Below, one piece after another: positions 10,977-48,333 of a DNA stretch of 64,000 nt. Positions within the stretch are counted from its first letter, which is position 1, and the number at the start of each line of letters is the position of its first letter. Origin of the DNA: Vitreoscilla filiformis (GTDB taxonomy: Bacteria > Pseudomonadota > Gammaproteobacteria > Burkholderiales > Burkholderiaceae_C). The DNA lies in assembly GCF_002222655.1 (NCBI RefSeq), contig NZ_CP022424.1:62001-126000 (forward strand), written 5' to 3'. Both the position numbers and the translations under genes were made by a program. Under the pieces are notes generated by a model. It had not been told where the DNA came from. It saw only the letters and a list, made by a program, of their open reading frames with translations, and made no database searches.

Positions 10977-12818
10977 ATGGAGAGTAAGTCAGAGGATGCG
11001 CCATTTTTCTTTGACACCGGGGGGCTGGTGATATTGATCATCGGGTTATGGTGGGCGGCCAAACCTTTTATCAGCGTCGATTATCACGATGGCCTGTTGT
11101 ACGCAGCGGACGCATTGCGCCTGTTGCACCCAGATCGGTTTAAGCACGATTTATTCTTTCATTCTAAAACGCAGGGTAATTTTTCGATTTTCCCGTGGTT
11201 GTACAGCGGTTTGATCGAATCCTGGGGGCTCAAACCCGCTGCGCTGGGCATGGTGATCATGGCCCGAACCATGTGGGTGGGTGCTTTGCTGCTGTTGGCC
11301 CGATCGTTGAGGGGGGGCGTTTTTTATCTTTGGGCGGTTGGGGCCATGCTGCTGCTGCCTGCCGGTTATGACAGCCTGTTGGCATTTCATTACGGAGAAG
11401 CCATTCCTACTCCGCGTTGCTGGGCCGAGGCGTTTGGCATGTTGGCTTTGGCGGCGTACCTTCAACAGCGGCATGTGGGGGCTGCGTGTCTTTGGGTGAT
11501 ATCGGCAGCCTTTCACCCTTTGATGGCCTTGCCAGTGGGATTGCTCTTGGTGATGATGCATCGATTCCGATGGGGAATCATCGCCATGGCCTGCGGCCTG
11601 TGTTTGGGGGCTGCTTACGGTGGCCTGGTGCCATTTGTGGGAATTTTTCAAAATTTTGATGATACTTGGTGGCAGTTGGTGCGCTCCCGCAATGGATCGG
11701 TGCTGATTCAGAACTGGCGCGTGGAATGGTGGTTGAAACCGGTGGTGTTATGGGTTTTGCTGCACCTGATCGCCACCACCGATGCCCGTGAGCCGATCAG
11801 AAAACTCGCCAAAGCGTTGGCCATGACCTTGGTGGTGTGCATGGCCTTGTGGTTACTGGCGTGTTGGCAGCGCAACGTATTATTGTGCCAACTGCAACTG
11901 TGGCGGGTTTTGTGGTTGGTGCAGTTGCTGGCCCCGGCTTTGTGGATCAGCGGCCTCAAACCTTGGCGTGATTGGGATCGGATCGATGTTGCCCATGTGA
12001 TGGCCGTGGTCACCGCTTTGCTGGGCAGCATTTGGGTCTTGAATCTTTTGATATGGCCTGCATGGCTCCTGACCTTACCCAGGGTGCGCGAGAAACTCCA
12101 ACACCCCATGGCGCTTCGTTGGTTGCCCATTGGTTTTGGCGCTTTGTTTTTGCTGATGATTCCGGAAAAATGGGCGATTTTCCGCACCATGTCTCAGCTC
12201 CATGCAGTGCGGGATGTCCCTGGGGCCGATGGGGTGGCGGCAGCGTCCGAGTTCTTGATGGCCGCCGTGATCGTGCTGGGCATCGCTCGCTGCATGGTAT
12301 TGGCCCGGCGGTTCAGCCCCTCTTTGGCCATGGGGGTGGGGTGGGGAAGCGCTGGTTTGGTGCTGGCGTTCAATGCATGGGTCATGTCCCATCAAATTCA
12401 GCGGGCCACCGAACCATTACCGGATGTGCAGGCCCTGCAAACGATGATCCCGGAAAAATCGGTGGTGTATTGGAGCCAAGGCCACTATGCCGCGTGGCTT
12501 TATTTGCAGCGCAGCAGTTATGCCAGCCATCGCCAGGGTGCTGGGGTGATGTTCTCGCGGGAGTCTGCGGTTTTGCTGGCCGAGCGCTTGGGGCGTTTGC
12601 GGGCGATTGGGTTTGAAAATGTCGATCGAGGATGGGTCATTCCGCCGGTATCTTGGGGAGAAGATGTGCCGGAGGGCCCACGCAGTTTGTGTGCCGATTC
12701 TGCGCTGGATTTTGTGATCGTGCCGGAAGAGCTGCCGGATGCGGATGCGATCGTGCCTTCCACCGTCTCGAAAGAATTTACCGCCTTATCGGTTTTTCGG
12801 TGCAAGCCGGCAGCCTGA
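10977..12818 (+). CDS. Large polytopic membrane protein of unknown function
   Basis: 613 residues with about 12 hydrophobic segments spread along the chain. An early acidic/His loop (SVDYHDGLLYAADALRLLHP) lies after the first membrane segment, and a soluble C-terminal part of about 150 residues follows. That topology resembles GT-C-type glycosyltransferases or related exporters, but no diagnostic motif was found and no function is claimed. Codon use is less GC-biased than in the neighbouring cob genes, hinting at separate ancestry. It ends 3 nt before the convergent LysR gene. Confidence 0.75.
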   Translation: MESKSEDAPFFFDTGGLVILIIGLWWAAKPFISVDYHDGLLYAADALRLLHPDRFKHDLFFHSKTQGNFSIFPWLYSGLIESWGLKPAALGMVIMARTMWVGALLLLARSLRGGVFYLWAVGAMLLLPAGYDSLLAFHYGEAIPTPRCWAEAFGMLALAAYLQQRHVGAACLWVISAAFHPLMALPVGLLLVMMHRFRWGIIAMACGLCLGAAYGGLVPFVGIFQNFDDTWWQLVRSRNGSVLIQNWRVEWWLKPVVLWVLLHLIATTDAREPIRKLAKALAMTLVVCMALWLLACWQRNVLLCQLQLWRVLWLVQLLAPALWISGLKPWRDWDRIDVAHVMAVVTALLGSIWVLNLLIWPAWLLTLPRVREKLQHPMALRWLPIGFGALFLLMIPEKWAIFRTMSQLHAVRDVPGADGVAAASEFLMAAVIVLGIARCMVLARRFSPSLAMGVGWGSAGLVLAFNAWVMSHQIQRATEPLPDVQALQTMIPEKSVVYWSQGHYAAWLYLQRSSYASHRQGAGVMFSRESAVLLAERLGRLRAIGFENVDRGWVIPPVSWGEDVPEGPRSLCADSALDFVIVPEELPDADAIVPSTVSKEFTALSVFRCKPAA

Positions 12819-12821
12819 AAC

Positions 12822-13712
12822 TCACCCCATCAACTGGGTCAACCATTCCGCAAACGCTTGGCACTCCCAGCGCTCTATCGCGCCTGGGGCCCAGCAAAGG
12901 TAATGTCGGTTCGGCGTGGTGACGCTGAGGGGCGACAGTTTCACCAAACGCCCCGATGCGATCCACGCCGCCCCCAGCCGCTGGCGCAGCAACACCACAC
13001 CCAGGCCACTGGCAGCGGCGTCGTAGGCCAGGCCCAGGTCGTTGAACTGAGCGCCCAACTGGGGTTCGGCCAAACGCACCCCGCAGTGCTGAAACCACGG
13101 CGACCACGGCTCCAACGGGCTGCGCACCAACCGCAAGCCCGCCAGCTCGGCGCGGGTACACAGCCCCGCAAAGGGGCCGAACTCATGCAGAAAACCCGGG
13201 CTGCACGCGGGGGTCACCGCATCGGTGAGCAGCAGGCGATGCTCGCAATCGCTGTAACCGCCTGGGCCGAAACGCACCTCCAAATCCGCCGGCTCGGCCT
13301 TCACATCCAGCAGCGGGATGGAAACTTGGAACACCAAATCAATGTCCGGATAGGCGTTGCGAAACAGCGCCAGGTGCGGCATCACCAACTCCCGGCAAAA
13401 CGTGGGCGTGACGGCCACCCGCAAGCGCGTCGGGCGCGGTGTGGCGGTGCTGCCGCCGCGTCCGGGGGCCATGTGTTGCAGGGCGTCCAGGGCGGTGCGT
13501 ACATGCGCGAGGTAGGCCGCGCCGTCGGCAGTGAGGGTGAAATCACTGCGCGCAAACAGTTTGAATCCCAGGTGATCTTCCAACTGCCGCAACCGGTGGC
13601 TGACCGCGCTCACCGTGACACACAGCGCTTCACTCGCCTTGCTGACGCTGCGCAGCCGGGCCACGGCCTCAAACGTTATCAAGCACTGGATGGGGGGAAT
13701 GTGGGGGTACAT
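12822..13712 (-). CDS. LysR-family transcriptional regulator (GcvA-like)
   Basis: 296 residues. The N-terminal winged HTH (about residues 8-66: CLITFEAVARLRSVSKASE, SAVSHRLRQLEDHLG, LFARS) is followed by a periplasmic-binding-like effector domain (about 95-290). The order LTADGAAYLAHVRTALD after the HTH is typical of GcvA-like members. The target is unknown: both neighbours are unrelated in direction (convergent membrane protein, upstream low-GC lipoprotein). Confidence 0.88.
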   Translation of the reverse strand: MYPHIPPIQCLITFEAVARLRSVSKASEALCVTVSAVSHRLRQLEDHLGFKLFARSDFTLTADGAAYLAHVRTALDALQHMAPGRGGSTATPRPTRLRVAVTPTFCRELVMPHLALFRNAYPDIDLVFQVSIPLLDVKAEPADLEVRFGPGGYSDCEHRLLLTDAVTPACSPGFLHEFGPFAGLCTRAELAGLRLVRSPLEPWSPWFQHCGVRLAEPQLGAQFNDLGLAYDAAASGLGVVLLRQRLGAAWIASGRLVKLSPLSVTTPNRHYLCWAPGAIERWECQAFAEWLTQLMG

Positions 13713-13766
13713 CGTGAAATTAACCCATGACCGTTGTGGGAAGATGGCAGGGCAATAACTTCGTTG

Positions 13767-14387
13767 TTATTTTTGTTGATGGAGAACGATGCTCAAAAAA
13801 ACAAAGGGGATCAAAGCGACGGTTAGCAAAGTTAACACACCATCCGCAGCCAGTGTGATGGGGGTCAGTGGTGCTTTTAAAGCGTTTTCTAGCGATGATG
13901 GTTTGGCGGAAATGGAAATGGTTTGATTTTTGTTGAGTTTGTATTTGTTTGTGGCTGGGTTGATTATATTGTTCGATGTGTATCTTTTCCCGGTGACAGT
14001 GAGTTCCAGGCGCATGATTTTTCCCATGAGAACCCTGAAACCCAATGACGAAGCCAGATCAAATTCATGATCTGATAAGGTGTCCATGGTTGTCATTTCC
14101 ACTGTGCCATGGAGTTCGTTTTTTTCATTGACAAAGAAATCCCCAAACCGGGTGATGATTTTTTGGGAGAGGGTGGATTGCGTGAGGCTCAGAATGGTGG
14201 CCGGCGCTTCCATGATGTAATGAAACTCTCGCCCCAGAAAAACGATATTTTTTCCATCGGTGGACAGGAGAATTTCGGATACCTCTTCCTGGTATCTGTA
14301 GTCTTCATAGAGCGCTTTGGTCGTGCATCCTGGTAATATGAGCGAAAACAGTGCTAATTGAATGAGTGAGCGTTTTCTAGCGTTCAT
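13767..14387 (-). CDS. Putative lipoprotein of unknown function
   Basis: 206 residues from the chosen ATG. The N-terminus MNARKRSLIQLALFSLILPGC is a signal peptide with a lipobox (LPGC) at about residue 21, which decides the start over longer in-frame options. The C-terminus has a hydrophobic stretch (LTLLTVALIPFVFLSIVL), unusual for a lipoprotein. The DNA is much richer in A+T than the flanking cob genes, suggesting transfer. It follows a zinc-finger remnant by 10 nt. No family was recognised. Confidence 0.65.
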   Translation of the reverse strand: MNARKRSLIQLALFSLILPGCTTKALYEDYRYQEEVSEILLSTDGKNIVFLGREFHYIMEAPATILSLTQSTLSQKIITRFGDFFVNEKNELHGTVEMTTMDTLSDHEFDLASSLGFRVLMGKIMRLELTVTGKRYTSNNIINPATNKYKLNKNQTISISAKPSSLENALKAPLTPITLAADGVLTLLTVALIPFVFLSIVLHQQK

Positions 14388-14397
14388 GGTGTGTCGT

Positions 14398-14553
14398 CTA
14401 TCCAACCTGTGACTGATGCGCCCGGCAGTACTGGAAACCGCCAAATCGCCCTTCTTGATTCCAGCAAAATTTGCCTTCATCAAAACTGATTCTTTCACCA
14501 CATGCAACGCACACCAGCTTGCGGCCTGAGGTGAGTTCAGGCTTCGGCTTCGC
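14398..14553 (-). pseudogene. Zinc-finger gene remnant in frame after cobT
   Basis: Immediately after the cobT TGA the same frame stays open for 51 residues. It encodes a convincing treble-clef-like segment: CVACGERISFDEGKFCW, then RFGGFQYCRAHQ. Such Cys-Cys...FCW...YC..HQ tails occur at the C-termini of various nuclease-like and zinc-ribbon proteins. There is no ATG; the only internal start is a GTG without ribosome binding site. It is best read as the 3' fragment of a gene truncated when this junction formed. A readthrough extension of CobT is less likely, because CobT already has its normal end. Confidence 0.5.
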
Positions 14554-15609
14554 TCAGCCCTCTTTCCCCGCCACCCCCGCACTCTCAAAACTCGCCATCT
14601 CATTCAAAAACGCCGCCGCCGCCTTCACCAATGGCCAGGCCAACACCGCGCCGGTGCCTTCGCCCAAACGCAAATCCAGCGCCAAGAGCGGCTCGCCGCC
14701 CACGGCTTGCAGCATCGCCGCATGGCCGGCTTCGGCGGAACGGTGCGCAAACACGCAGTAATCCAGCACCGCTGGCGCGATGTGTCGCGCCGCCAGCAAG
14801 GCACTGCTGGCGATGAAACCGTCCACCAACACCACCATGCGCCGCTCGGCTGCACCCAGCATGGCGCCGGCCATCATGGCGATTTCAAACCCGCCATATT
14901 CGCGCAGCGCCTCAACGCCATCGGTGAGGGCGCCGGTGCGCGCCGCCGCACGGGCCAGCACCTCGCGTTTGCGCGCCAGGCCGGCATCGTCCACGCCGGT
15001 GCCTCGGCCCACGGCCACGTCCAGCGGCACGCCGGCCAGTTTGTGCAACAACAGGCTGGCGGCGGAGGTGTTGGCAATGCCCATCTCGCCAAACGCCACC
15101 ACGTTGCAGCCGTCTTCAGCCGCTTGGTGCATCAAGGCTCGGCCTTGCGCCAAGGCCGCGTCGCACTGGGCGGCGGTCATCGCGGGTTGCTCGGCGCTGT
15201 TGGCCGTGCCGGGGGCCACTTTGGCGTGAATCAGGCCGGGGGCGTTGGCAAAGTCGTGGTTCACACCGGCGTCCACCACGCGCACGCTCATGCCCACGGC
15301 ACGCGCCAGGGCGTTCACCGCCGCGCCGCCAGCCAGGAAGTTCATCACCATTTGCCAGCTCACATCTTGCGGGTAGGCGCTCACGCCTTCGTGCGCGATG
15401 CCGTGATCGCCCGCGAACACGTACACACGCGGATCCCGCAACGCAGGCGACAAGGTGTTTTGCACCAACCCTAAACGCAACGCCACCGTTTCAAGCTGGC
15501 CCAGCGCGCCCAACGGCTTGGTTTTGGTGTCGATCTTGTGACGCAGGCGGGCGGCCAATTCGGCCTGAGCGGCGGTGTGCAGGGACGTGATTTCAGGAAT
15601 GAAAGCCAT
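14554..15609 (-). CDS. cobT: Nicotinate-nucleotide:dimethylbenzimidazole phosphoribosyltransferase
   Basis: 351 residues, normal family length. It activates 5,6-dimethylbenzimidazole to alpha-ribazole phosphate for the lower ligand, linking it to the BluB domain at the left edge. Motifs are [75 protein letters not shown] and the C-terminal [15 protein letters not shown] with the catalytic Glu. It starts 2 nt after the cobO stop. Confidence 0.95.
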
Positions 15610-36345: not shown

Positions 36346-37199
36346 TGGAGCGCATTGAGCATCACGCCAGTTTGGGTGGCCGGCAGGAGGTTTGGCAGCA
36401 TGCCAGTACGACGCTGGGCTGCCCCATGCGTTTTGGCGTTTATCTGCCGCCTGCCGCGTTGCGTGGCGAGCGTTGCCCGGTGCTGTATTGGCTTTCGGGC
36501 CTGACCTGTACCGAGCAGAACTTCATCACCAAGGCTGGGGTGCAGCAGCACGCGGCGCAGCATGGCTTGATCGTGATCGCCCCGGACACCAGCCCGCGTG
36601 ATCCCGACGGCACGCTGGGCGTGGCCAACGACCCGGCTTATGACTTGGGCCAAGGCGCAGGCTTCTACCTGGACGCCACGCAATCGCCCTGGGCCGCGCA
36701 CTTTCGCATGGAAAGCTACGTGGTGCAGGAGCTGCCCGCCTTGGTGGAAACGCATTTCCCCGCCACTGCACAGCGCAGCCTCAGCGGCCATTCAATGGGC
36801 GGGCACGGTGCGCTCACCCTGGCCATGCGGCACCCGGGCCGTTATGCCAGCGTGAGCGCGTTTTCACCCATCGTGGCGCCGAGCCAAGTGCCGTGGGGCC
36901 AGAAGGCGTTCGCCGCCTACTTGGGGGAGGATCGCAGCGCCTGGGCCGCGCACGATGCGGTGGCGCTGATCGCCCACGCCGCCGAGCGCCTGCCGCTGCT
37001 GGTGGATCAAGGGGAGGCGGATGACTTCCTTGCCACCCAGTTGCGCCCCGAGCTGCTGCAAGCCGCTTGCGCCGCTGCGGGCCACCCGCTGACGCTGCGC
37101 CTGCACCCGGGCTACGACCACAGTTACTACTTCATCGCCAGTTTCATCGGTGAGCATGTGGCGTGGCACGCGCAGGCACTGAGGGCGCGGTTGCTGTAG
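36345..37199 (+). CDS. fghA: S-formylglutathione hydrolase
   Basis: 284 residues, alpha/beta hydrolase of the esterase D type. Catalytic Ser in GHSMGGHGALTLAMRHPG, Asp in VDQGEADDFL, and His in HPGYDHSYYFIASF; YWLSGLTCTEQNF carries the oxyanion segment. It releases formate and glutathione after frmA action. The start overlaps the frmA stop, forming a two-gene formaldehyde detoxification operon. Confidence 0.95.
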
Positions 37200-37288: not shown

Positions 37289-37618
37289 TTAAGGCAAGGG
37301 TGGTTTTCCACTTATTATTTGAATATGTTGCTGATTGCTGAGTTTTTCGCAGCATTGCTCATTTATATGGCAAAAATCAAGCCATGAGATCACGCCCTTA
37401 TAATTTTTCTCGTAATGAAGATCTATTCGACATATTTCTGGCCGATCTTCATAAATAGAGCACAGAGCGGTCTTTTCCTCAAAGTGAATGCAAACCCCAT
37501 CCCCTTTGTCTAGCCATTTGGTTAATGGGGATAGATGCACACTGCGGCAGCAAGCGCCACAGCGGGTGCATGGAAATGGTGGCTCAAATTTCAATGACGT
37601 CATCGTCGTTCGGGTCAT
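37289..37618 (-). CDS. Small cysteine-cluster (YkgJ-like) protein at the end of the island
   Basis: 109 residues. Cysteine-rich: CTRCGACCRSV at 17-27, GVCIHF, ALCSIYEDRPEICRID, FCHINEQCCE. This is the YkgJ-type Fe/Zn-cluster pattern of unknown function, a distant relative of the protein at 32578-32898. Its start overlaps the end of the preceding small coiled-coil gene by about 35 nt; an internal ATG at 37603 would reduce this to 20 nt. The DNA is AT-rich. It is the last gene of the same-strand run that begins with the CARF regulator. Confidence 0.75.
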   Translation of the reverse strand: MTRTTMTSLKFEPPFPCTRCGACCRSVHLSPLTKWLDKGDGVCIHFEEKTALCSIYEDRPEICRIDLHYEKNYKGVISWLDFCHINEQCCEKLSNQQHIQIISGKPPLP

Positions 37619-38018
37619 TGATCTTGTTGAGCAATTGTGTGGCTTGAGCCATCGGGCTATTTTTTGTTTGATCTACGATGAGTGTGAGTGCAGCATTAAT
37701 TTGTTGATCGTTGCCACTGGCAAGACCAGATTCCAGTAAAGCAAAATATTTATCAAATTTAATGGCTCTTTCGGCAAAAGAGCTGGATATCAATTCCCGG
37801 AGTGTTTCTGCTTGTGCTTGGATTCGCGCCAATGCAACGTCGCGATGTGCGCTGATATGAGTTCTTTTCGTGACTTCTAATTCTCGGGTGGTTGCATACT
37901 CTTTCCAGGCGGTAATGAGGTTTTGACTGCTGGTCGTCACCGCAGTGATGGGGGCGGAAGGGATTGCAGGTAGTTTTGCCATGACTGAAGTTTTAATTTG
38001 CTGAAGTGTGGATTTCAT
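37584..38018 (-). CDS. Small charged helical protein of unknown function
   Basis: 144 residues. A central charged helix (TRELEVTKRTHISAHRDVALARIQAQAETL) is followed by SSSFAERAIKFDKYFALLESGLASGND and an acidic C-terminus. No enzyme motif is seen. The pattern resembles helical partner proteins that occur next to membrane or effector genes in mobile islands, but no family name can be given. The start MKSTLQQIK was chosen over a longer form. It lies 69 nt after the glycine-rich membrane protein gene and overlaps the next gene. Confidence 0.7.
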   Translation of the reverse strand: MKSTLQQIKTSVMAKLPAIPSAPITAVTTSSQNLITAWKEYATTRELEVTKRTHISAHRDVALARIQAQAETLRELISSSFAERAIKFDKYFALLESGLASGNDQQINAALTLIVDQTKNSPMAQATQLLNKINDPNDDDVIEI

Positions 38019-38087
38019 CCGTTTTTCGAATGAACCAAAAATGCACACCTACCTGACTTAGCAGGGGTGTGCTGTTAAATAAATTTA

Positions 38088-39071
38088 TTATTTTATAATG
38101 ATTTTATCGCCATACGTCAGTAATCCAGAGCTGGATATGTGAATGATTGATTTGAGTTTGGATTGGAGATCCTTGGTGCTCTCGCCGTTTTTTTCCATGA
38201 TAGGCGTGTCAAGGGTGGCTTTCAAGGCCTTACCTAACTGGAGTAACCTTTCGAACGCGTTGTCATCATTGGTTTGACCAATAAAGAACTTAGAATCGTC
38301 AAAGCATTTTGCAACCTTGCTCAACGTCATGCTCATCTCCATGGCGTTGGCTTGTAATCCTTTGAGAACCTCCTTCATTGCGGCGATTTTGGCGACTGCT
38401 TGGTCAACTTCTGAATCGTATTCCCAGGCTTTGGTCACTGCTTCTTCAGCCTTAGATGCCATCACGAAACCCGTGATGGCGAGAGCCGGCCCCGCCACCA
38501 AGCCGCCCAGCACAGCCATACCACCTGCCATACCGAAGCCGCCAGCCGCTAAAGAGCCACCACCCAGCCAAGCCAAAGTCGCATTGGTTGCTGCTGCACC
38601 GCCCAGGCTGGCAATTGCTGTTCCCGTTGAAGCTGAAGCTAGCATACCGACACTGCCGTAAGCTCCCAATCCCATCAGTGCGCCGCTGGCTGCGCCGGAA
38701 GCGAGACCTTTTTCGATATCCAGGCTCCCGATAACCATTTTCTCCATTTGTGGCAAGTTGAGCTCTTCAATCATTTGCTCGAATCCAGATATATTGGATC
38801 CTGCTTTTTTCTTTCTGCTCTTGATGGCGTCAACAAGATATTTAATTTGGTTGGAAAAGATGTGTACTTTTAACTTGCCCAGCTCTTGCAGCATGGCATT
38901 TGTTTTCTCTCTTTCTTGCTCAAGCGAGAGAACGGCTTCTTCATGTTTGCGTTTGGCTCGGTTCCCGATGCGCTCGGCACGTTCAAAGTCTTCTTTGGCA
39001 TCAAGGCCCTTTTTGATGCCAATGCCGCCAGCCAGCAGAGCTGCACCGGCAAGAATGAATGGGATAGGCAT
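38088..39071 (-). CDS. Glycine-rich (glycine-zipper-like) membrane protein with coiled coils
   Basis: 327 residues. A short hydrophobic N-terminus (PIPFILAGAALLAGGIGI) leads to a coiled coil at about 24-75. A long Gly/Ala-rich hydrophobic block at about 124-208 follows (GLASGAASGALMGLGAYG, ATNATLAWLGGGSLAAGGFG, GMAVLGGLVAGPALAITGF), then another helical region. Such blocks resemble pore-forming or ApoL-like helical hairpins. Function is unknown. It follows hsdS by 119 nt on the same strand. GGA lies 9 nt upstream of the ATG. The DNA is AT-rich compared with the flanks. Confidence 0.75.
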   Translation of the reverse strand: MPIPFILAGAALLAGGIGIKKGLDAKEDFERAERIGNRAKRKHEEAVLSLEQEREKTNAMLQELGKLKVHIFSNQIKYLVDAIKSRKKKAGSNISGFEQMIEELNLPQMEKMVIGSLDIEKGLASGAASGALMGLGAYGSVGMLASASTGTAIASLGGAAATNATLAWLGGGSLAAGGFGMAGGMAVLGGLVAGPALAITGFVMASKAEEAVTKAWEYDSEVDQAVAKIAAMKEVLKGLQANAMEMSMTLSKVAKCFDDSKFFIGQTNDDNAFERLLQLGKALKATLDTPIMEKNGESTKDLQSKLKSIIHISSSGLLTYGDKIIIK

Positions 39072-39097
39072 GATGTTTTTCCAAAGCGCCGGGTTAA

Positions 39098-39135
39098 AAG
39101 TTAGGAGGCAGGCGCTGAATGCCTCAGCCTAACTT
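39098..39135 (-). terminator. Hairpin downstream of hsdS
   Basis: AAGTTAGG-x-AGGCA pairs with TGCCT-x-CCTAACTT, giving a stem of about 13 bp; on the minus strand it is followed by TTTT. A second small hairpin (GACAACT/AGTTGTC, 39148-39166) lies between it and hsdS. Together they could end or attenuate hsdRMS transcription before the accessory genes. Confidence 0.5.
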
Positions 39136-39190
39136 TGATTGACATCAGACAACTTTTTCAGTTGTCACTAAGTAATTTTAATATTTTTAG

Positions 39191-40348
39191 TTATCCAAAA
39201 AACTTATGGCTAAGCGACTGGGTTAGTTGCTCTGCATTGCTGGCCATTTCTTGCATCTTTGCCATATATCGTGCAACTTTTTTTGTGACTTGCACATATT
39301 TTTGCTGCCGATCTTTTGATGGTATTTGAATGGGTAGGGTTTTTAGGTCTTTGTAGTAGACCGCAAAAACGCTGGTGGTTCCCGATTTTCTGGTTTCTAG
39401 TTCTTGCTTTAGCAGAGGAAGTTGAAACTGCATGGCAATGACTTCAGGGGCGATCATCGAGTTCAGCCGCAACCGCATGATATTGTTGTTAAAAATGACG
39501 CCGTCACCGCCATCCCATATTGCAGTTTTGCCAACGAGTTCACGAGAGTTGCGGGTGTTAAAAAGCAAATCGCCACGCCTGAGTTCAAACTGCGCTATTT
39601 CTTCCGGTGAAGCGTTGGTGCCCTGAATTTTCTTGTGCAAAATTTTCCCATCGTTGGAGATTGCATCCATTCGCAAATAGGGTGTTGGTAGATTCCAGCC
39701 AAATTCTTCTGCGGATCGAACGAGTCCAAGCTTTGTTGACTCAACAAGCTCCGACAACTCCAAACTCGGCCATTGATATGGGTTTTCAACAGGGTCGCCA
39801 AATATTTCAACATAGGCAGCCCGCAAAAACTCATCCGCCAACCGCATAGCTTCTTGTCGCTTACTGCGCAGGCTGTCTGCTTTGCTGAGAACGGCTGTAA
39901 TGCGACGCTGTTCGATCAAACTGGGTAGTGCAACCTCGTGCTCCCAGAGAATCCTCATAGAAACTCTCGGCATTTTTGCCCCATCAACCTGCTGACTAAC
40001 CCACTGCAAAAAGTATGGAGACTTCAGGTATGCAGCTAAGTACTCCCGCGTCACTATATTCTGATTTGGGCGCATCGGCACTAATTCTGATGTGCAAAAA
40101 CCGGGGGAATCCGGCAAATAAACCTTATTAAGATAGGGGCGCAGCTTTGAGTAAAGGACATTGCCATCATCAAATCGGTTGGTTGAGTTGCCAATTTCTG
40201 CAATGGAAACAAAATCTTTGGACAACAAAACTCCAGTATTTGGCTCGATCTTATCCAGGTTTAATATCCAAACATTCCCCTCAATTTCGAAATTCTCAGC
40301 CTGTGCCGCTGGTGCAATATCACGCAGTTTGTAGAGAATTTTACTCAA
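39191..40348 (-). CDS. hsdS: Type I restriction-modification specificity subunit
   Basis: 385 residues starting at a TTG that overlaps the hsdM stop, with GAAGGAG 5 nt upstream. Two target-recognition halves are evident, each followed by a helical spacer (ITAVLSKADSLRSKRQEAMRLADEF in the centre, RQQKYVQVTKKVARYMAKMQEMA at the C-terminus) and typical TRD ends such as LPSLIEQRRITAVL and LPIQIPSKDRQQKY. It would define a bipartite DNA target. The gene is AT-rich, as specificity genes often are. Confidence 0.9.
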   Translation of the reverse strand: MSKILYKLRDIAPAAQAENFEIEGNVWILNLDKIEPNTGVLLSKDFVSIAEIGNSTNRFDDGNVLYSKLRPYLNKVYLPDSPGFCTSELVPMRPNQNIVTREYLAAYLKSPYFLQWVSQQVDGAKMPRVSMRILWEHEVALPSLIEQRRITAVLSKADSLRSKRQEAMRLADEFLRAAYVEIFGDPVENPYQWPSLELSELVESTKLGLVRSAEEFGWNLPTPYLRMDAISNDGKILHKKIQGTNASPEEIAQFELRRGDLLFNTRNSRELVGKTAIWDGGDGVIFNNNIMRLRLNSMIAPEVIAMQFQLPLLKQELETRKSGTTSVFAVYYKDLKTLPIQIPSKDRQQKYVQVTKKVARYMAKMQEMASNAEQLTQSLSHKFFG

Positions 40349-41889
40349 AACAGCTCCTTCAACTCGTCTAGGTCGCCTTGAATTTGCTTTTCAAGCAAAA
40401 TAAGTTGCTCTAGCAAATAGCGGGGATTATTGACTTTCGCGATTTCAATTTTTTTTCGAATGTATCTATTAATAGATAAGTCGAAATTTTCCGATTTTAT
40501 CTCACTAGCAGGAACTTCAAACGCTTTCGCAGAGCGATCGGAAATATCAATCAGTCCTTCACACCACTGCCGATACTTCACCAACACATCCAGCAAATCA
40601 CCCTTTCCATCCCCAATAGGCGTACGCTTATCATCCAACGTAAACCCATCCGACTGCACATCATAGAAAAACACGTTTTCCGTCTTGCCACCCTTGGCAA
40701 AAATGATGATCGCCGTCGAAACCCCCGCATAAGGCTTGAAAACCCCCGAAGGCAACGAAATCACCGCCTCCAACTGGTTCTGCTCAATCAAATGCTGCCG
40801 CAACTGAACATGCGCCTTGCTCGAACCAAACAACACCCCATCCGGCACAATCGTCGCACTGCGACCCCCCACCTTCAACATCCGCAAAATCAACGCAATA
40901 AACAATAACTCCGTCTTTTTCGTTTTAACCGTGCGCAACAAATCCGGCGCCACATCCTGTTCGTCCAAACTCCCCTTGAACGGCGGATTCGCCAAAATCA
41001 AATCAAACGCCCCCTTAGACCCCTTCGGATGACGCTCCTCAAAACTCTGGCTCAGCGTATCCTGATAATGCACGTCCGGCTCTGCCACCCCATGCATCAC
41101 CAAATTCATGCTGGCAATGCGCAACATCGTGGCATCAAAATCATAGGCGTGGAACATGTCTGTATCCACATGCGAGCGGTGCCCCTGCTGAACCAGCAAA
41201 TCCCCGCTGTACGTCACATGCGTTTCACCCTCCACTACTTCCTCATGCCGGCCCGCTTCGCTGGAATGCTCACGCAACAAATACTCGTAAGCTTCCACCA
41301 AAAAACCCGCCGTCCCGCAGGATGGATCGCAAATCCGATCCGTCGGCTGCGGCTGCATCAATTCGACCATCAACCGAATGATGTGCCGGGGTGTGCGAAA
41401 CTGGCCATTGATGCCCGCCGTGGTCAGCTTGCTCAATAAATACTCGTACAAATCCCCCTTTGTATCCCCCTTCTCCAGCGGCAATTCTTGCACCGCCGCC
41501 ACCGCCTTGGATAATAACGTTCCCTTCTGAATCATCAGTTGCGCATCCTTCATGAAGGACGCAAACAAACTGCCCGCCCCCGTGCTGCGCTCCGCCAGAC
41601 GGCGAAAATGCGGAAATACCCGATCCCGCACATGCGGCAACATCATCTCGCCGCCATAGTGGCGCCATGTTTCCCAGCGGCAGTCCTGATCTTCCACTTC
41701 AAAACGCCGGTTGAACACCTGGCCCGTGATCGAGGCCCGTTTCTCATCCTTGCGCTCCTGCATATCCAACAGGCGGCTGTACATCAAAAACGTGATCTGC
41801 TCGATCACCGTTAACGGGTTGGTGATGCCCCCCGTCCAAAAATCCGTCCAAAGGCTGTCGATGCGGCTCTTGAGTGGGCCAGTGATCAT
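40345..41889 (-). CDS. hsdM: Type I restriction-modification DNA methyltransferase subunit
   Basis: 514 residues from the ATG; a TTG 21 nt upstream is possible. N-terminal HsdM helical domain (about 1-130), then SAM motif DPSCGTAGF at about 188-196 and catalytic NPPF at about 301-304, identifying a gamma-type N6-adenine methyltransferase. FRTPRHIIRLMVELM is the conserved entry to the methylase domain. It works with HsdS for protection and with HsdR for restriction. It starts 26 nt after the hsdR stop. Confidence 0.93.
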   Translation of the reverse strand: MITGPLKSRIDSLWTDFWTGGITNPLTVIEQITFLMYSRLLDMQERKDEKRASITGQVFNRRFEVEDQDCRWETWRHYGGEMMLPHVRDRVFPHFRRLAERSTGAGSLFASFMKDAQLMIQKGTLLSKAVAAVQELPLEKGDTKGDLYEYLLSKLTTAGINGQFRTPRHIIRLMVELMQPQPTDRICDPSCGTAGFLVEAYEYLLREHSSEAGRHEEVVEGETHVTYSGDLLVQQGHRSHVDTDMFHAYDFDATMLRIASMNLVMHGVAEPDVHYQDTLSQSFEERHPKGSKGAFDLILANPPFKGSLDEQDVAPDLLRTVKTKKTELLFIALILRMLKVGGRSATIVPDGVLFGSSKAHVQLRQHLIEQNQLEAVISLPSGVFKPYAGVSTAIIIFAKGGKTENVFFYDVQSDGFTLDDKRTPIGDGKGDLLDVLVKYRQWCEGLIDISDRSAKAFEVPASEIKSENFDLSINRYIRKKIEIAKVNNPRYLLEQLILLEKQIQGDLDELKELF

Positions 41890-41915
41890 GGGTGTCAAAC
41901 TTTCTTGCAAATAAG

Positions 41916-44900
41916 TCAGTGAGCGGCGGGCGGTTGCAGCGGTTCGCCAAAGCTGCGCACCATGGCCACCACCTCATCCAGTTGGGTGGCATCCGTGAAC
42001 ACACCGCCCAACCCTTCCGCATGCACCGTGTTAAACGGCGCCTCAAACAATTGCGCCACCGAAATGGCCCCGAATTGGCGAATGTGATCCTTCAGCATCG
42101 CCAAGAATCGCAATTGTTGACTGGTGAGTGCGTGCGCTTGCGCGAAAGTTGCAAACCGCGCTTCTACCGCCTCATGCTCCAACCCCACAATCGCCCGCAA
42201 AATGCGGCTCAGTGGTACCGCCGTGTCCGGGTAAAACTCGCGCAAGGTGGTCAAATTCACATCCGGGTTGCGGGTGTGCAGCAGGCTGTTCAGCCGATCC
42301 AACTCCTCCGGCTGTATCGACTCGCCATGGCGCACTTTGCGCAGCACCGAATCCGTCTCGAACAAAGGCTCCAGCGCCGCTTGCACCGCCTTGCGGTAAA
42401 TGGCGAAATCCAGCGATTGGATGTTCGTCGGGCGCTCGGCCACCTGGTAATCGGCTTCGGTCTCGTGGATGTCCAGCATCGGCGTGGGGGCCGGCGGGGG
42501 CAGAACAGGGGCTTCTGCCAGCCCCACAACGTCCCGTAACGCCTCTCGCAGCGTGTCCAATTGGGCGTAAGTGGGCGCCTCCCAGAATGCATCGGAGCGC
42601 AGTTTGCTCAACTCCTTGGCCTTGGCCCGCACGGGATTGAGGTGCGGCGGCAAGCGCCCCAGCCATTCAAGAACCGCCTCTTTCTGCGAGTTCGGTTGGC
42701 CCGGTTTGACCAGCGCCTCAGCCTGAGCTTTGGCCATCAACACATCCCAGCGCAGCGCCTCGCCTTGGCCACGCACATCCAGAGCGTTCATCAGCGGCGC
42801 CACGGTGTCCGTCAACAATTGGCGCGTCACCGGTGCGAACTGGCGAACGCGCTGGAGATCGCGTGCTTGCTCCACCGCCCGCCAGTTCTCGCGCACCGTC
42901 ACAGCCCCATCGGGCAGGGCCGCCGCATCCTGTTGAATCTGCTGCGCCAGCCGATCCAACGCTGCCGTGTCGGCGTGCTTGAGCGCCAAGCTCGCCAAAT
43001 GAAGACGGGCCTCATAGCGCCGTTGGGTCAGCGATTTGGGCACCGCAGGCTCAACTTCGGTGGTCGGAACCTCGTGAAACGCGAAATTGCCCCAGTGATC
43101 AAAAATCAAAAATTCGCTCTTGTCTCGGCCCGGCCCAAATAGGTTTTGGCACAGGCGCGTGCCTCGGCCAATCATTTGCCAGAATTTCACCTTGCTCTTG
43201 ACCGGCTTGGCAAACACCAGATTCACCACTTCGGGCACGTCGATACCGGTGTCCAACATGTCCACCGAAATGGCGATGCACAGTTCGCCGTGTGGCATCT
43301 TGAACTGGTCGATCAAATCCTCGGCGCGGGGCTCCTCGGAGTGGATCACGCGGCAAAACTTGCCGGCAAACTGCGGATACATCTCATCAAAAAGCTCGGC
43401 CAGCAAGCGGGCGTGGCGGATGTTGCGGGCAAACACAATGCTCTTGCCGGGCAGTTGCCCGTCGGCATCGCGCAGGCCGTTGTCCATCAAGTTGCGCAGG
43501 ATGATGCGGTTGGTGCCCTTGTTGAACACCGCAGCATCAATCTCTTGAGCGTCGAAATCCAGCGTGTTTGGGTCGATGCCCTGGTCTTCCAGCTCCGCCA
43601 CCTGTTCATCCGTCAGATGGGCCGCCTTGATGCCCTCGCGCAAAAACTTGGTGGTGTGCGCCACCACGCGGAACGGCACCAGATGGCGATCCGCAATCGC
43701 CTGCTCCAGCGGATAGTTGGCCGTGGGTAGTTTGTAATCACAGCCGAACAAACGGCAGGTGCTGCGGCTGACCATCTCCACTGGCGTGGCCGTCAACCCG
43801 ACTTGGAGGGCGTCAAAGTACTTGAACAAGTCTCCGTAGAGGTTGTAAATCGAGCGGTGAGATTCGTCCGCGATGATCAAGTCAAAAAATCCCACATCGA
43901 ACGACTCATAGTCGTTGATCAGCCCCTGGTAGATACCGATGTAGATGCGAGCGTCCAGTTTGCCGACGTCATTGGCTTGACCGATGACGTAAATAGGCTC
44001 CTGCACAAAATCATTGAACGCATGTTTGGCCTGCTTGCGCAGCTCCTTGCGGTCGCACAAGAACAGCACGCGCTTAACCCAGCGGGCGTCGATCAGCAGT
44101 TTGGCCAGGGCGATGGCCACCCGCGTTTTGCCCGTGCCCGTGGCCTGCACCACCAAGGCACGGCGGTGGCTTTGGGAGAAGCGTTCGGCCACGCGGGTGA
44201 TGCTCTCGATTTGGTAGAGCCGCCCGGCCACGTTGCCATCGGGGCGAACGTCTCTCAGCAAATCGCGTTTTTGGCGCCGTTGAAAACCGACGCGGTATTG
44301 CAAGGTGTCCTTCGAGAAAAACCCGAATACTTGCCGAGGGGGGTACTTGCCCGCGTCGTCCCACACCCAAATGTCGTGCCCATTGGTATAAAAAATCATG
44401 GGCCGCTGGCCGTGGACTTTTTCCAGCGCGTCGGCGTACAGCTTGGCTTGTTGTTGGCCGGCGCGGGCGTCGGCGTGGGCTTTCTTCGCTTCGATCACGG
44501 CCAGGGGTTTGCCGTTGTCGTCCCATAGCACGTAATCGCAATAGCCCTTGCCACTGGCGCTGGGTTGGTGGGGCACTTCCACTTCTTGACCCACGGATTC
44601 GCTGCTGCCAGTGCCTGCGGGTACATGCCACCCGGCCATGCGCAAATCCCGGTCGATCAACCACTTGCGGGTGTGATCTTCGCTGAAGCGCAGTTGCTGG
44701 GCCGTTTGGGTCGAAACCTGGGTGGCTTGCGCCAGCGGCATGGGGGCGGCCCTGGTGGGTGAAGTCCCGGCCTGGTCGGCGGCGCGCAGCTCGGCCAGTT
44801 CCAGCAAGGCTTGCTTGAGGCGCTCCTCCTTGAGCTGGTTTTCTTCGGCCAGGGCCTTGGCCTTGCGTTTGATGGCTGCCTTGCTGTCAATGCCCTCAAC

Positions 44901-45323
44901 AGGTGGAGGCTTGAATTCCCCAAAGTCGCTGACTTTGCCACCCAAGAAGGAAACGTGCAGCCAACGCGCCAATTGCCAGGCCTCCTGCACGCAGCGAACA
45001 GCGTCGGAGGACTCGACATCCTCTCCATGCGCTCCCCGGTTACCGAGCCGGCGCAACAGGTGCAGCTTTTCCAGCACCAGCGGTTGGGCAATCGGGGCGA
45101 AGCTGGCGTTGTCCAGCAGATCCACCAGGGTGGACTGCGGCGCACGCTCCAGCCTGAATTGGTTGTAAAGCCGATCAACCAGCCGCTCCGCAAAACTGCG
45201 CAGCTTGACCAGCGCACTTGCCGGGTCGCTGTATGCGTAGTGCTCCGCGTACCCACCCATGTTGGCCAGTTCGGGATAAGCCGCCCGCAGCGGCTCAAAG
45301 TTCAACGATCGAAGATCTTGCAT
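41916..45323 (-). CDS. hsdR: Type I restriction endonuclease subunit (EcoEI-like)
   Basis: 1135 residues. An N-terminal DUF4145-like helical domain (about 1-135, LGNRGAHGEDV) and a coiled coil (150-185) precede the nuclease domain (D263 and the EAK at 278-280). The translocase follows, with Walker A ATGTGKT at 394-400, DESH at 486-489, VGLTATP, and ARNIRHARLLAELF / GTRLCQN in the second lobe. The C-terminal region is EcoEI-type. The ATG has GGAAG 5 nt upstream. It is the first hsd gene and lies 63 nt after the CARF regulator stop, with a sigma-54-like promoter in the gap. Confidence 0.94.
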   Translation of the reverse strand: MQDLRSLNFEPLRAAYPELANMGGYAEHYAYSDPASALVKLRSFAERLVDRLYNQFRLERAPQSTLVDLLDNASFAPIAQPLVLEKLHLLRRLGNRGAHGEDVESSDAVRCVQEAWQLARWLHVSFLGGKVSDFGEFKPPPVEGIDSKAAIKRKAKALAEENQLKEERLKQALLELAELRAADQAGTSPTRAAPMPLAQATQVSTQTAQQLRFSEDHTRKWLIDRDLRMAGWHVPAGTGSSESVGQEVEVPHQPSASGKGYCDYVLWDDNGKPLAVIEAKKAHADARAGQQQAKLYADALEKVHGQRPMIFYTNGHDIWVWDDAGKYPPRQVFGFFSKDTLQYRVGFQRRQKRDLLRDVRPDGNVAGRLYQIESITRVAERFSQSHRRALVVQATGTGKTRVAIALAKLLIDARWVKRVLFLCDRKELRKQAKHAFNDFVQEPIYVIGQANDVGKLDARIYIGIYQGLINDYESFDVGFFDLIIADESHRSIYNLYGDLFKYFDALQVGLTATPVEMVSRSTCRLFGCDYKLPTANYPLEQAIADRHLVPFRVVAHTTKFLREGIKAAHLTDEQVAELEDQGIDPNTLDFDAQEIDAAVFNKGTNRIILRNLMDNGLRDADGQLPGKSIVFARNIRHARLLAELFDEMYPQFAGKFCRVIHSEEPRAEDLIDQFKMPHGELCIAISVDMLDTGIDVPEVVNLVFAKPVKSKVKFWQMIGRGTRLCQNLFGPGRDKSEFLIFDHWGNFAFHEVPTTEVEPAVPKSLTQRRYEARLHLASLALKHADTAALDRLAQQIQQDAAALPDGAVTVRENWRAVEQARDLQRVRQFAPVTRQLLTDTVAPLMNALDVRGQGEALRWDVLMAKAQAEALVKPGQPNSQKEAVLEWLGRLPPHLNPVRAKAKELSKLRSDAFWEAPTYAQLDTLREALRDVVGLAEAPVLPPPAPTPMLDIHETEADYQVAERPTNIQSLDFAIYRKAVQAALEPLFETDSVLRKVRHGESIQPEELDRLNSLLHTRNPDVNLTTLREFYPDTAVPLSRILRAIVGLEHEAVEARFATFAQAHALTSQQLRFLAMLKDHIRQFGAISVAQLFEAPFNTVHAEGLGGVFTDATQLDEVVAMVRSFGEPLQPPAAH

Positions 45324-45363
45324 TCACTTCCGACAGGTTTCGCATCGCGACGGTGAGGCCATG

Positions 45364-45379
45364 TGCGAAAACCTTGCCA
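45364..45379 (-). promoter_or_regulatory. Putative sigma-54 (-24/-12) promoter of hsdRMS
   Basis: The minus strand reads TGGCAAGGTTTTCGCA. Against TGGCACG-N4-TTGCA, every defined position except two agrees, and the GG and GC elements are exactly spaced. Transcription would begin near 45353, giving a leader of about 30 nt to the hsdR ATG. It lies directly downstream of a gene for a sigma-54 activator on the same strand. One short match is only suggestive alone, but the context greatly strengthens it. Confidence 0.65.
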
Positions 45380-45386
45380 GCCTCGC

Positions 45387-46907
45387 TTAGTCGGTGGATT
45401 CCACGCCGAGGCGTTTCATCCAGTTGCCCAAAGTTTGGTAGTTGGGAAAGCCGAGCAATTCGGCTGCCGCAGACTTTTTATCGCCCGATTGTTGAAGCGC
45501 CCGCACAACGTAGTCTCGGGCTACTTCATCCAAAAGTTCTTTCAAATCAAAACCTTGCGTTAAGGGACGGCCCAAGATGTTTTCTTCGGGCCGCTGGATG
45601 TGGAGCAGTGCTGCACGAGCATCTTCGGCATCAATGGTCGGGCCAGGTGACCAAATCGATGCCCGCACGAGCGTGTGGTAGAGCTCGCGAACATTCCCAG
45701 GCCAGGCATGTGAAAGAAGAATTTTTCTTGCGTTAGCAGAAAGTTTTTTCTCTTGCGCCTCGGGGCATCCCCGTGCATCGGCATTGATCTGGGCGAGGAA
45801 ATGGTCGATGAGCAAGGCCGTGTCGTGTTCCCGTTCACGCAACGGCGGGAGGTGCAACATGCCCACGGCCAGCCGGTGAAACAGATCCTCTCGGAATCGC
45901 CCGGTCACCACATCGGCAGCCAAATCCCGATGTGTAGCTGCCACCACCCGCACATCCACCTTGATGGCTTTGGAGGCCCCCAGCGGCATGACCTCGCCGG
46001 TTTGCAGCACTCGGAGCAGGCGAACCTGAGCATCTGGCGGAAGATCGCCGACCTCGTCTAAAAACAAGGTGCCCCCGTTGGCTTCGAGAAAGTGCCCTTT
46101 GCGGTCGGTTACCGCGCCAGTGAAGGCGCCACGACGGTGGCCAAACAGTTCGGAACTGGCCAACTCCCGCGAAATCGCGCCACAGTTGACGGCCACGAAT
46201 TCTTTCCCCGCCCGCCGGCTGGCGGCGTGGATGGCTTCGGCGAACAGCTCTTTACCGGTGCCCGTTTCCCCCAAAACCAACACCGGCACATCCAAAACGG
46301 CGATGCGCCGTGCCATGTCGATCTGCTGCCGAACCGCTGTGCTGCGGTGAATGATCTTGCTGAATTCAGGGGCGACGCCGCCCTGTGTGAGTCTGGCGAT
46401 CCGATCTTCGGTGCGCTGCAAGAACTCGGGGAGGAAGTCGCTGGCCAAGTCAAACGAGAAATCGACCGACTCCAGGCCCTGCTCGCGTGATGTTTGGATC
46501 AGTTGGGCTGGAAAACGGGTCTTCGACAAGATGATCCAAATGACCACCATGGCGGGCGTGCCAGGGCTGAGGTGAAACGTCAGTTGGACACCGTCCCGAG
46601 GAAGCCCCGCCTTTTTCAGATTGGCAGTGACAGCGGCGTAAATGGAAGCGTAGTTGATGGGGCTGTCCAACGCCATGGGGCACAGATCAACTTGGCTCGA
46701 TGCGTAACCCGCACGCTTTTCCAGCCAAGTGCAGTAACGCTGGCTTCGGGGGGTGTCGTAGTTGGTTAGCAGATGGAGGCGGTGGTACCGCCTGGGCTGA
46801 CCGACGAGCGCTTTAGCGATCGGGCCCAAGTCCTGACCGAGTTTGCCTTCTGAGGCTTCATGATCGGTGTTACCGATCCAGGCAACGAGCCATGATTCAC
46901 CACTCAT
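45387..46907 (-). CDS. RtcR-like regulator: CARF domain, sigma-54 AAA+ domain, HTH
   Basis: 506 residues from the ATG giving MSGESWLVAW. Residues 1 to about 160 resemble the CARF domain of RtcR (RLHLLTN, FHLSPGTPAM 111-120, RFPAQLIQTS), a fold that binds cyclic oligonucleotides or RNA ends. The AAA+ part has Walker A GETGTGKE 213-220, the sigma-54 contact loop GAFTGA 260-265 and Walker B LFLDEVGD 281-288. The C-terminus has a Fis-like HTH (GDKKSAAAELLGFPNYQTL). No rtcA or rtcB is nearby; the adjacent target is hsdRMS. It is probably inactive until a ligand binds the CARF domain. Confidence 0.88.
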   Translation of the reverse strand: MSGESWLVAWIGNTDHEASEGKLGQDLGPIAKALVGQPRRYHRLHLLTNYDTPRSQRYCTWLEKRAGYASSQVDLCPMALDSPINYASIYAAVTANLKKAGLPRDGVQLTFHLSPGTPAMVVIWIILSKTRFPAQLIQTSREQGLESVDFSFDLASDFLPEFLQRTEDRIARLTQGGVAPEFSKIIHRSTAVRQQIDMARRIAVLDVPVLVLGETGTGKELFAEAIHAASRRAGKEFVAVNCGAISRELASSELFGHRRGAFTGAVTDRKGHFLEANGGTLFLDEVGDLPPDAQVRLLRVLQTGEVMPLGASKAIKVDVRVVAATHRDLAADVVTGRFREDLFHRLAVGMLHLPPLREREHDTALLIDHFLAQINADARGCPEAQEKKLSANARKILLSHAWPGNVRELYHTLVRASIWSPGPTIDAEDARAALLHIQRPEENILGRPLTQGFDLKELLDEVARDYVVRALQQSGDKKSAAAELLGFPNYQTLGNWMKRLGVESTD

Positions 46908-47001
46908 ATCAGCATGATAAAGAACAGAACAGGCGTACTGCTTCGCGCCTCTATGAACACCGCCGGGCACTTGCACAAGCGCCTCCGCCTATCCTTGCCC
47001 C

Positions 47002-48333
47002 ATGCAACACCCTCACACCCTGGAGCGCCTGCGCCGTGGCGAACTCGCCGGCCTGCGCCGCCTCGATCTGGCGGAAGATCTGACCGACTTTCCCGCCGAA
47101 ATTTTCGATCTGGCCGACACGCTGGAGGTGCTCAACCTCAGCCACAACCGCTTGAGCCGTCTGCCGGACGATTTGCCGCGTCTGCACCGTCTCAAGGTGC
47201 TGTTCGCCTCGTACAACGATTTCACCGAGCTGCCCGACGTGCTGGGCGCGTGCCCTCACCTCAGCCAAGTGGGTTTGCGCAACAACCGCATTGCGCATCT
47301 GCCGGCAGCCGCCCTGCCCCCGCGTCTGCGCTGGCTCACCCTCACGGACAACGCACTCACCACCCTGCCCGCCGCCCTGGGCGACTGCGTGGCACTGGAA
47401 AAACTCATGCTGTCCGGCAATCGCTTGACGGTCTTACCGGCGTCACTGGCGGGGCTGCCCGCCCTGGCTTTGCTGCGTGTGGCGGCCAATCAACTGCCTG
47501 AGCTGCCTGGCTGGTTGGCCGAGCTGCCCGCGTTGGCGTGGGTGGCGGGGGCGGGCAATCCGTGGTGTGCCGCTTCGTCGGAGTGTCCGGCGGAGGTGGT
47601 GCAAGTTCCGTGGTCGGCGCTGACCTTGCAGCAGCGTTTGGGCGAAGGCGCTTCCGGGGTGACGTGGCAAGCGCTGTGGCAACCCGATGCAGGGCCGGCG
47701 CGCCCGGTGGCGGTGAAGCTGTTCCGGGGCGCCATCACCAGCGATGGCTTGAGCGACAGCGAGCAAGCCGCCAGCTTGAGTGTGGGGCCGCATCCACAGT
47801 TGTGCAGCGCGTGGGCACGGCTCACGGCGCATCCGCAAGGCGCCACGGGGCTGGTGATGCCGCTGCTGGCCGCTGATCTGCAACCCCTGGCCGGCCCGCC
47901 CAGCTTGGACAGTTGCAGCCGCGATGTGTACGCCCCGACCGCCCGGTTCAGCGTCTCCCAGGCCGTTCGCCTGTTGCGGGATGCCGCCCAAGCGCTGGCC
48001 CACTTGCACACCCATGGGGTGCTGCATGGCGATTTTTATGCCCACAACTTGCTGTGGCACCCCACCAGCGGAACTGCTGTGCTGAGTGACTTGGGCGCGG
48101 CCTTGCGCTGGCCAGACGGCGCCGGGTTCGCCTGGCCCACCGCCCAGCGCTGGGACGTGCTGGCCTTTGGCCACTTGCTGGAAGAAGTGTTGGGGCGCTT
48201 GGTGGTGTCAGAGGAGGCCGTCGCTTTGCGACAACGTTGGCAACCTTGGCAAACGGCCTGCCAATCCACCCAGGTTCACGAACGCCCTGCCATGTGCGAA
48301 GTGGCCCGCGCGCTGGCAGCATCCAGCGCGTGA
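47002..48333 (+). CDS. Leucine-rich-repeat protein kinase
   Basis: 443 residues. About seven leucine-rich repeats span residues 18-190 (LEVLNLSHNRLSRLPDDL, LRWLTLTDNALTTLP, LEKLMLSGNRLTVLP). A kinase domain follows from about 205: glycine loop GEGASG 214-219, Lys239 in AVKLF, catalytic loop HGDFYAHN 342-349, and DLG at 363-365 in place of DFG. The kinase lobe is short (about 235 residues). Substrates are unknown. It is transcribed divergently from the CARF regulator across a 94-bp gap; a functional link is only conjecture. Confidence 0.85.
   Translation: MQHPHTLERLRRGELAGLRRLDLAEDLTDFPAEIFDLADTLEVLNLSHNRLSRLPDDLPRLHRLKVLFASYNDFTELPDVLGACPHLSQVGLRNNRIAHLPAAALPPRLRWLTLTDNALTTLPAALGDCVALEKLMLSGNRLTVLPASLAGLPALALLRVAANQLPELPGWLAELPALAWVAGAGNPWCAASSECPAEVVQVPWSALTLQQRLGEGASGVTWQALWQPDAGPARPVAVKLFRGAITSDGLSDSEQAASLSVGPHPQLCSAWARLTAHPQGATGLVMPLLAADLQPLAGPPSLDSCSRDVYAPTARFSVSQAVRLLRDAAQALAHLHTHGVLHGDFYAHNLLWHPTSGTAVLSDLGAALRWPDGAGFAWPTAQRWDVLAFGHLLEEVLGRLVVSEEAVALRQRWQPWQTACQSTQVHERPAMCEVARALAASSA

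Follow-up and report, generated by a model that had tools for sequence, protein, structure and literature searches.

A type I restriction-modification operon of Vitreoscilla filiformis with a dedicated, signal-gated sigma-54 activator as its likely regulator

Type I restriction-modification (R-M) systems are usually pictured as always on, and a locus in Vitreoscilla filiformis raises the question of whether restriction of this type can be placed under an inducible promoter. The stretch of DNA analyzed here (the window; 64,000 nucleotides, NZ_CP022424.1, positions 62,001 to 126,000) carries an island of seven open reading frames (ORFs), all on the minus strand, at 37289..46907, in which a CARF-AAA+-HTH regulator is followed by hsdR, hsdM, hsdS and three accessory genes (Table 1). 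An earlier model reading of the letters and ORFs without database searches (the sequence-only reading) had listed these seven same-strand genes in this order and range, and the list was confirmed by ORFs and family matches. From the comparisons described below it is very probable that the R-M operon is controlled by a dedicated, signal-gated sigma-54 activator.

The regulator matched the PADLOC family RtcR_PspF2 CARF_AAA_HTH (PDLC01995) with 645 bits (2.7e-194) over model positions 2-481 of 481 and the Pfam family Sigma54_activat with 1.6e-66. Walker motifs and an intact GAFTGA loop, the loop by which AAA+ activators contact sigma-54, were present in its sigma-54-type AAA+ domain, and all 27 of the regulators linked to hsdR carried a GAFTGA, GSFTGA or GAFSGA loop. 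A C-terminal HTH is predicted from the PADLOC profile, which was matched to its last position, and from the motif QTLxNW near the end of six of six aligned sequences. The CARF part, modeled from eight sequences, had the expected N-terminal CARF fold, and its best fold matches included the oligoadenylate-binding proteins Csm6 and Can2, the fold itself not giving the ligand; a CARF sequence-profile search against PDB chains returned no match at E 0.5. A full-length AlphaFold2 model from three sequences was poor (predicted local distance difference test score, pLDDT, 51.8) and was discarded. Alignment with relatives supported a start at 46907, within a longest ORF that begins at 46976. The genome also contained rpoN (434 bits).

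By gene content and motifs, the type I R-M system behind this regulator is predicted to be complete. HsdR matched PADLOC REase_I (898 bits, 1.7e-270) as well as Pfam HSDR_N, ResIII and EcoEI_R_C and kept the motifs of the PD-(D/E)xK nuclease and the superfamily 2 (SF2) motor (EAKK, ATGTGKT and DESH), HsdM matched MTase_I (574 bits, 9.5e-173) with the methyltransferase motifs DPSCGT and NPPF, and HsdS matched Specificity_I (228 bits, 4.9e-68) with two Methylase_S stretches.

Sigma-54 promoters share a GG-N10-GC consensus (-24/-12), and a candidate of this kind lies between the regulator and hsdR, from which transcription would start near 45353 with a leader of about 30 nt. All 38 regulators compared were scored against this consensus with weights of our own (maximum 24); the E. 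coli rtcBA promoter scored 24.0/24. Elements of at least 20 were found in 26 of 26 junctions between regulator and hsdR, compared with 1/19 between hsdR and hsdM, 1/19 between hsdM and hsdS, 0/22 between hsdS and the next gene, and 1/37 upstream of the regulator. The junctions between regulator and other genes gave 5/12, one of them on an Azotobacter plasmid (L107) that was added by hand to the hsdR-linked set since an antisense ORF had displaced its broken hsdR. With this plasmid included, the element lay at most 40 nt past the regulator stop in 26 of 27 hsdR-linked loci, the exception being L085 (116 nt). Random windows of the same loci contained it in 11 of 2611 cases at 40 nt (0.4%) and 79 of 2611 at 220 nt, while NtrC-type control activators had it in 2/22 (220-nt windows; 22 of 23 control loci could be scored). 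Compared with dinucleotide shuffles, 31/38 regulator ends stood out at p 0.05, the window among them with p 0.015, and genome-wide the strict pattern gave 11 matches versus 2 for the reversed pattern.

In the window, an inverted repeat TTTCGCA...TGCGAAA at 45338-45370 (minus strand) places one arm over the -12 box and could be an operator or a leader hairpin; similar stems were seen in L034, L076, L086, L089, L107 and L108. As a general feature, an operator over the -12 box was rejected, stems at p <=0.05 being present in only 7 of 31 loci. Sigma-54 sites pointing the other way ahead of the regulator were not a rule either (5/26 hsdR-linked and 2/11 other loci).

The regulator model of PADLOC was searched over 399 genomes of the order, 369 of the class and 398 of the phylum. 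Apart from the window, regulators above 540 bits were found in at least 29 loci (4 at order, 5 at class and 20 at phylum level); these counts are lower bounds, the best three or four candidates per genome having been scored, and include one regulator truncated at the edge of its contig (G863) and another interrupted by an internal stop (G586). Most other matches in the order-level search were NtrC-type proteins that matched by the AAA+ part only. The comparison took in all 29 loci as well as three with weaker matches, two named contigs and four plasmids likewise chosen by name; L079 was set aside (no regulator above 250 bits). The next same-strand gene was hsdR in 21 of the 29, and hsdR also adjoined the regulator in L033, L034, the P. 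luteola plasmid L108 and L085 (weaker regulator match, 363-bp gap). The 27 hsdR-linked regulators formed 16 clusters at 70% identity, and their hsdR genes included distant branches (137-274 bits in L080, L085 and L090; 860-1942 for most others). The regulator of L090 clustered at 80% identity with that of L087 and others of the usual hsdR branch, while its own hsdR was distant (137 bits); this points to a swapping of the regulator-promoter module between R-M systems. Of the eight sampled loci in which other genes follow the regulator, two (L083 and L084) have gene families in common with plasmids L105 and L106. Judged by annotation (VWA, PP2C, kinase, AAA, DUF2357), these two plasmids appear CoCoNuT-like. 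Recurrence of the pair in other genomes, which the sequence-only reading had set as the check on its proposal, was therefore observed; its assignment of the regulator as an RtcR-like CARF-AAA+-HTH protein was borne out by families, fold and loop, and its idea of sigma-54 control agrees, at the level of sequence, with the conserved element and the presence of rpoN.

Two of the compared loci had features of their own. On the Azotobacter plasmid (L107, 14976-22706) hsdR and hsdM were broken into several fragments; the regulator ORF was intact, as was its sigma-54 element. In L097, two regulator copies face each other within 19.5 kb, a distant-branch hsdRMS lies between the two, and no sigma-54 element was found at the expected places.

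Several points weigh against control of the operon by this activator. The threshold of 20/24 was chosen after a first shuffle scan had been seen, and the weights were self-set. With L107 set aside, regulators standing before other genes had the element in 4 of 11 cases and lacked it in 7. The single strict match in the window is not significant over 64 kb (0.41 expected; at least one in 29 of 100 shuffles), so the weight of this element derives from its place and conservation. A common enhancer palindrome was found neither upstream of the regulator nor in its 3' end, and the hsdR-linked loci are partly related, the largest cluster at 70% identity holding 10 of the 27. Finally, a fully inducible hsdRMS raises a self-restriction problem: with all three genes on the sigma-54 promoter, the host would be unmethylated when restriction appears.

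In the mechanism we propose, by analogy with RtcR, the CARF domain would keep the AAA+ domain inactive until a ligand binds, possibly a nucleotide-type or RNA-end signal made during infection or damage. The AAA+ ring would then, through its GAFTGA loop, open sigma-54 polymerase at the -24/-12 element just past the regulator stop, and transcription of hsdR-hsdM-hsdS, possibly extending into the genes that follow, would begin about 30 nt before hsdR. Expression of hsdRMS would thus be inducible, a prediction that is directly testable through a 16-bp element, one gene and rpoN.

The self-restriction problem would be resolved if the sigma-54 promoter boosted mainly hsdR, with read-through, and hsdM and hsdS were also expressed constitutively from promoters inside hsdR, so that methylation would be present all the time and restriction on alarm. 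We regard this as a refinement more than a rival and as having a little less than an even chance. Separate promoters for hsdR and hsdMS in E. coli K-12 count in its favor, as do the 117-165 nt before hsdM in four loci (L082, L098, L100 and L101). The arrangement in the window counts against it, with hsdM only 5 bp behind hsdR and a 4-bp overlap of hsdM and hsdS. A sigma-70 scan gave five promoter-like sites against a shuffle mean of 5.6, which speaks neither for nor against a basal hsdM/hsdS promoter.

A narrower alternative concerns the ligand, which might be RNA fragments of the RtcR type (tRNA halves with a cyclic phosphate), a suggestion that we hold tentatively. The regulator is 29% identical to E. 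coli RtcR over 381 amino acids, including the CARF strand-4 region; the RtcR CARF domain binds such fragments according to the part of PMC7790460 drawn on here, and the same ligand is proposed for related regulators in the relevant part of PMC11090510. However, RtcB (PF01139) and RtcA (PF01137) had no match in this genome, listed as 100% complete, yet both are described in the sections used of PMC9650030 as needed for RtcR activation in E. coli. The strand-4 motif is SPGTP here and TTGTH in RtcR, the score of 358 bits is far under the cut-off of 650 for the NCBIfam RtcR equivalog, which sets the protein apart from RtcR proper, and the fold matches to Csm6 and Can2, although a fold by itself names no ligand, also speak against this one.

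Unlikely in our view is a bolder scenario in which hsdRMS would stay silent until the alarm, leaving the chromosome unmethylated, and the enzyme would attack self and phage DNA alike as an alarm-triggered, possibly abortive weapon, gated by a CARF ligand independent of RtcAB and backed by an exchangeable, membrane-active cassette downstream of hsdS that would strike in addition. That regulator and R-M operon are mere neighbors in a defense island, the regulator acting on other targets, is highly improbable: a different gene follows the regulator in 8 of the 29 sampled loci, and related regulators on two plasmids precede other defense-type genes, but the element's presence in nearly all hsdR-linked loci, far above background and across distant hsdR branches, argues against it. 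Sigma-54 control of the operon by its own regulator is the reading we prefer.

Even though the three genes behind hsdS adjoin the operon, as the sequence-only reading had noted in drawing them into the regulated unit, their membership is only possible, given a 119-bp gap and the occurrence of the cassette elsewhere on its own. The first accessory gene, whose product is probably membrane-inserting as judged from its sequence, is separated by 39 bp from the helical gene, which overlaps the cysteine-cluster gene by 35 bp. The helical protein had no match in Pfam, NCBIfam, PADLOC or PHROGs. Acinetobacter johnsonii pMRA (where the cysteine-cluster gene is unannotated) and a Massilia plasmid (counted as one with G298 contig 3, identical in size and match positions) carry the trio in the order of the window, and a Leptolyngbya plasmid carries the M09A-helical pair without the third gene. 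The M09A-like protein is 49% and 54% identical to homologues on two plasmids, and on two plasmids, too, the cysteine-cluster gene directly follows the helical gene. None of these three plasmids was among the four with a regulator at E 1e-100, no type I R-M genes were annotated in their fetched stretches, and none of the three accessory genes was found in the other 37 regulator loci compared. At E 1e-6, a search of 369 genomes of the class returned the helical protein from the genome of the window alone. At E 1e-12, M09A was found in three of 300 genomes of the order, again counting that of the window, and a scan of viral contigs for M09A confirmed 0 of 103 candidate stretches. The accessory genes are outside the recurring core and form a rare, separate cassette. 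A small protein in L101 was rejected as a homologue of the helical family, the weak local match (24 columns, probability 55%) being no evidence of homology.

Genes near hsdS varied among loci: in L108 it is followed by JukA/JukB, and in L086 a gene for an RmuC protein separates hsdR from hsdM. The variable genes behind hsdS are candidates for co-induced defenses. Behind hsdS in L033 (17765-19774) a 669-aa protein combines an ATPase-like start with a ThsA-like remainder. Eight loci (L086, at 11963-14577, L034, L081, L085, L087, L092, L098 and L107) shared a gene pair for an AAA ATPase of about 550 aa and a 300-aa protein that has no family, placed immediately after hsdS or with other ORFs in between; the pair was also observed behind the regulator on viral contigs L142 and L144. 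In L128 (7334-10959) PDC-M09A, PDC-M09B and a JukA-like gene stand in a row, an arrangement that may link the M09 and Juk defenses.

Viral contigs contributed 39 loci, of which seven with near full-length regulators were examined. With the threshold fixed beforehand, the element was found in four of the seven, L138 and L139 giving the same result, and no hsdR was found behind the regulator in the DNA examined of these seven contigs. The regulators of L138-L144 are of the RtcR_PspF2 type on contigs classed as viral, and in L138 and L140 the genes examined behind the regulator were without a family. Five entries of a phage collection reached E 1e-60 with the regulator; their alignments lay around the AAA+ part and spanned 61-66% of the query, none of them covering 80%.

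Table 1. Positions of the regulator, its candidate target promoter, the R-M genes and the accessory cassette (window coordinates unless a locus is named)
Feature	Position	Strand	Basis
CARF-AAA+-HTH sigma-54 activator (RtcR_PspF2 clade), 506 aa, ATG 46907	45387..46907	-	PADLOC, Pfam, alignment of starts
CARF domain, about residues 1-160, motif SPGTPAM at residues 114-120	46428..46907	-	
GAFTGA loop codons of AAA+ domain	46113..46130	-	alignment
Candidate sigma-54 promoter TGGCAAG-GTTT-TCGCA	45364..45379	-	regulator–hsdR gap (63 bp); GG and GC ten bases apart
hsdR, 1135 aa, restriction/translocation subunit	41916..45323	-	PADLOC REase_I, Pfam, motifs
hsdM, 521 aa, N6-adenine methyltransferase	40345..41910	-	PADLOC MTase_I, motifs
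hsdS, 385 aa, specificity subunit	39191..40348	-	PADLOC Specificity_I, two Methylase_S stretches
PDC-M09A-like glycine-rich protein, 327 aa (accessory 1)	38088..39071	-	PADLOC 96 bits, 7.2e-28
Small helical protein without named family, 154 aa (accessory 2)	37584..38048	-	
CxxCxxCC / YkgJ-family cysteine-cluster protein, 109 aa (accessory 3)	37289..37618	-	Pfam PF03692 7.3e-07
Accessory cassette	window 37289-39071; L129 9001-10623; L130 5446-7095; L131 4045-5372		

The island looks inserted beside fghA. Five congeners also have fghA, adjoined by frmA in four of them, and their DNA ceases to resemble that of the window at about the end of fghA (window 37147-37185). No island gene was found in the congener stretches fetched beside fghA (5-12 kb; one ended at a contig end about 3 kb past fghA). 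A megablast of the island DNA against plasmids gave no near match. Divergent from the regulator, at 47002-48333 on the plus strand, lies a gene for a leucine-rich-repeat protein with a kinase-like domain; no counterpart was found among the other regulator loci compared, and the gene was left out of the system.

The novelty of the link between regulator and R-M genes was overstated in the sequence-only reading, the association and the idea of regulation having been printed in 2014 (PMC4012209) and the arrangement with type I R-M in 2024 (PMC11090510). Our literature search found no report of a conserved sigma-54 element or of an induction test; a 2020 CARF classification paper, which may report it, was outside its coverage. 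The pairing is thus already published, and the conserved sigma-54 start site is the added evidence. With it, the search for a CARF ligand can move beyond CRISPR and RNA repair to a host in which RtcAB was not found.

Among known systems, the closest are the RtcR-like CARF-AAA-HTH proteins that Makarova et al. (2014, PMC4012209), in the passages on them considered here, described as often associated with R-M and perhaps able to regulate restriction by sensing ligands related to phages; that they activate the genes behind them through sigma-54 was already proposed there. Domain order and association are the same; those passages give no promoter sequences, and the conserved -24/-12 element is added here. 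RtcR homologues directly before type I R-M also occur in the RtcR–type I RM–CoCoNuT superoperons of Bell et al. (2024, PMC11090510), whose main text mentions a promoter once, for likely internal RtcR-independent promoters. The window differs from these in the accessory genes behind hsdS, a Pfam scan having found no CoCoNuT (McrB/McrC-type) genes among its 15 genes at 32.9-54.4 kb. PDC-M09, a candidate defense system of PADLOC, shares its M09A protein with the first accessory gene, but in L128 M09A is followed by M09B, whereas in the window it is followed, without M09B, by the helical gene, which has no PADLOC family, and the YkgJ gene. RptR, described in the part of PMC12255303 used here as a repressor of R-M in a phage defense island, likewise exerts dedicated transcriptional control over R-M, whereas the regulator of the window is a predicted sigma-54 activator. 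E. coli RtcR is likewise a CARF-AAA+-HTH activator with a sigma-54 promoter on the neighboring operon; there rtcBA is divergent from rtcR, whereas in the window, with its different strand-4 motif and without RtcAB found in the genome, the predicted target stands in tandem behind its regulator.

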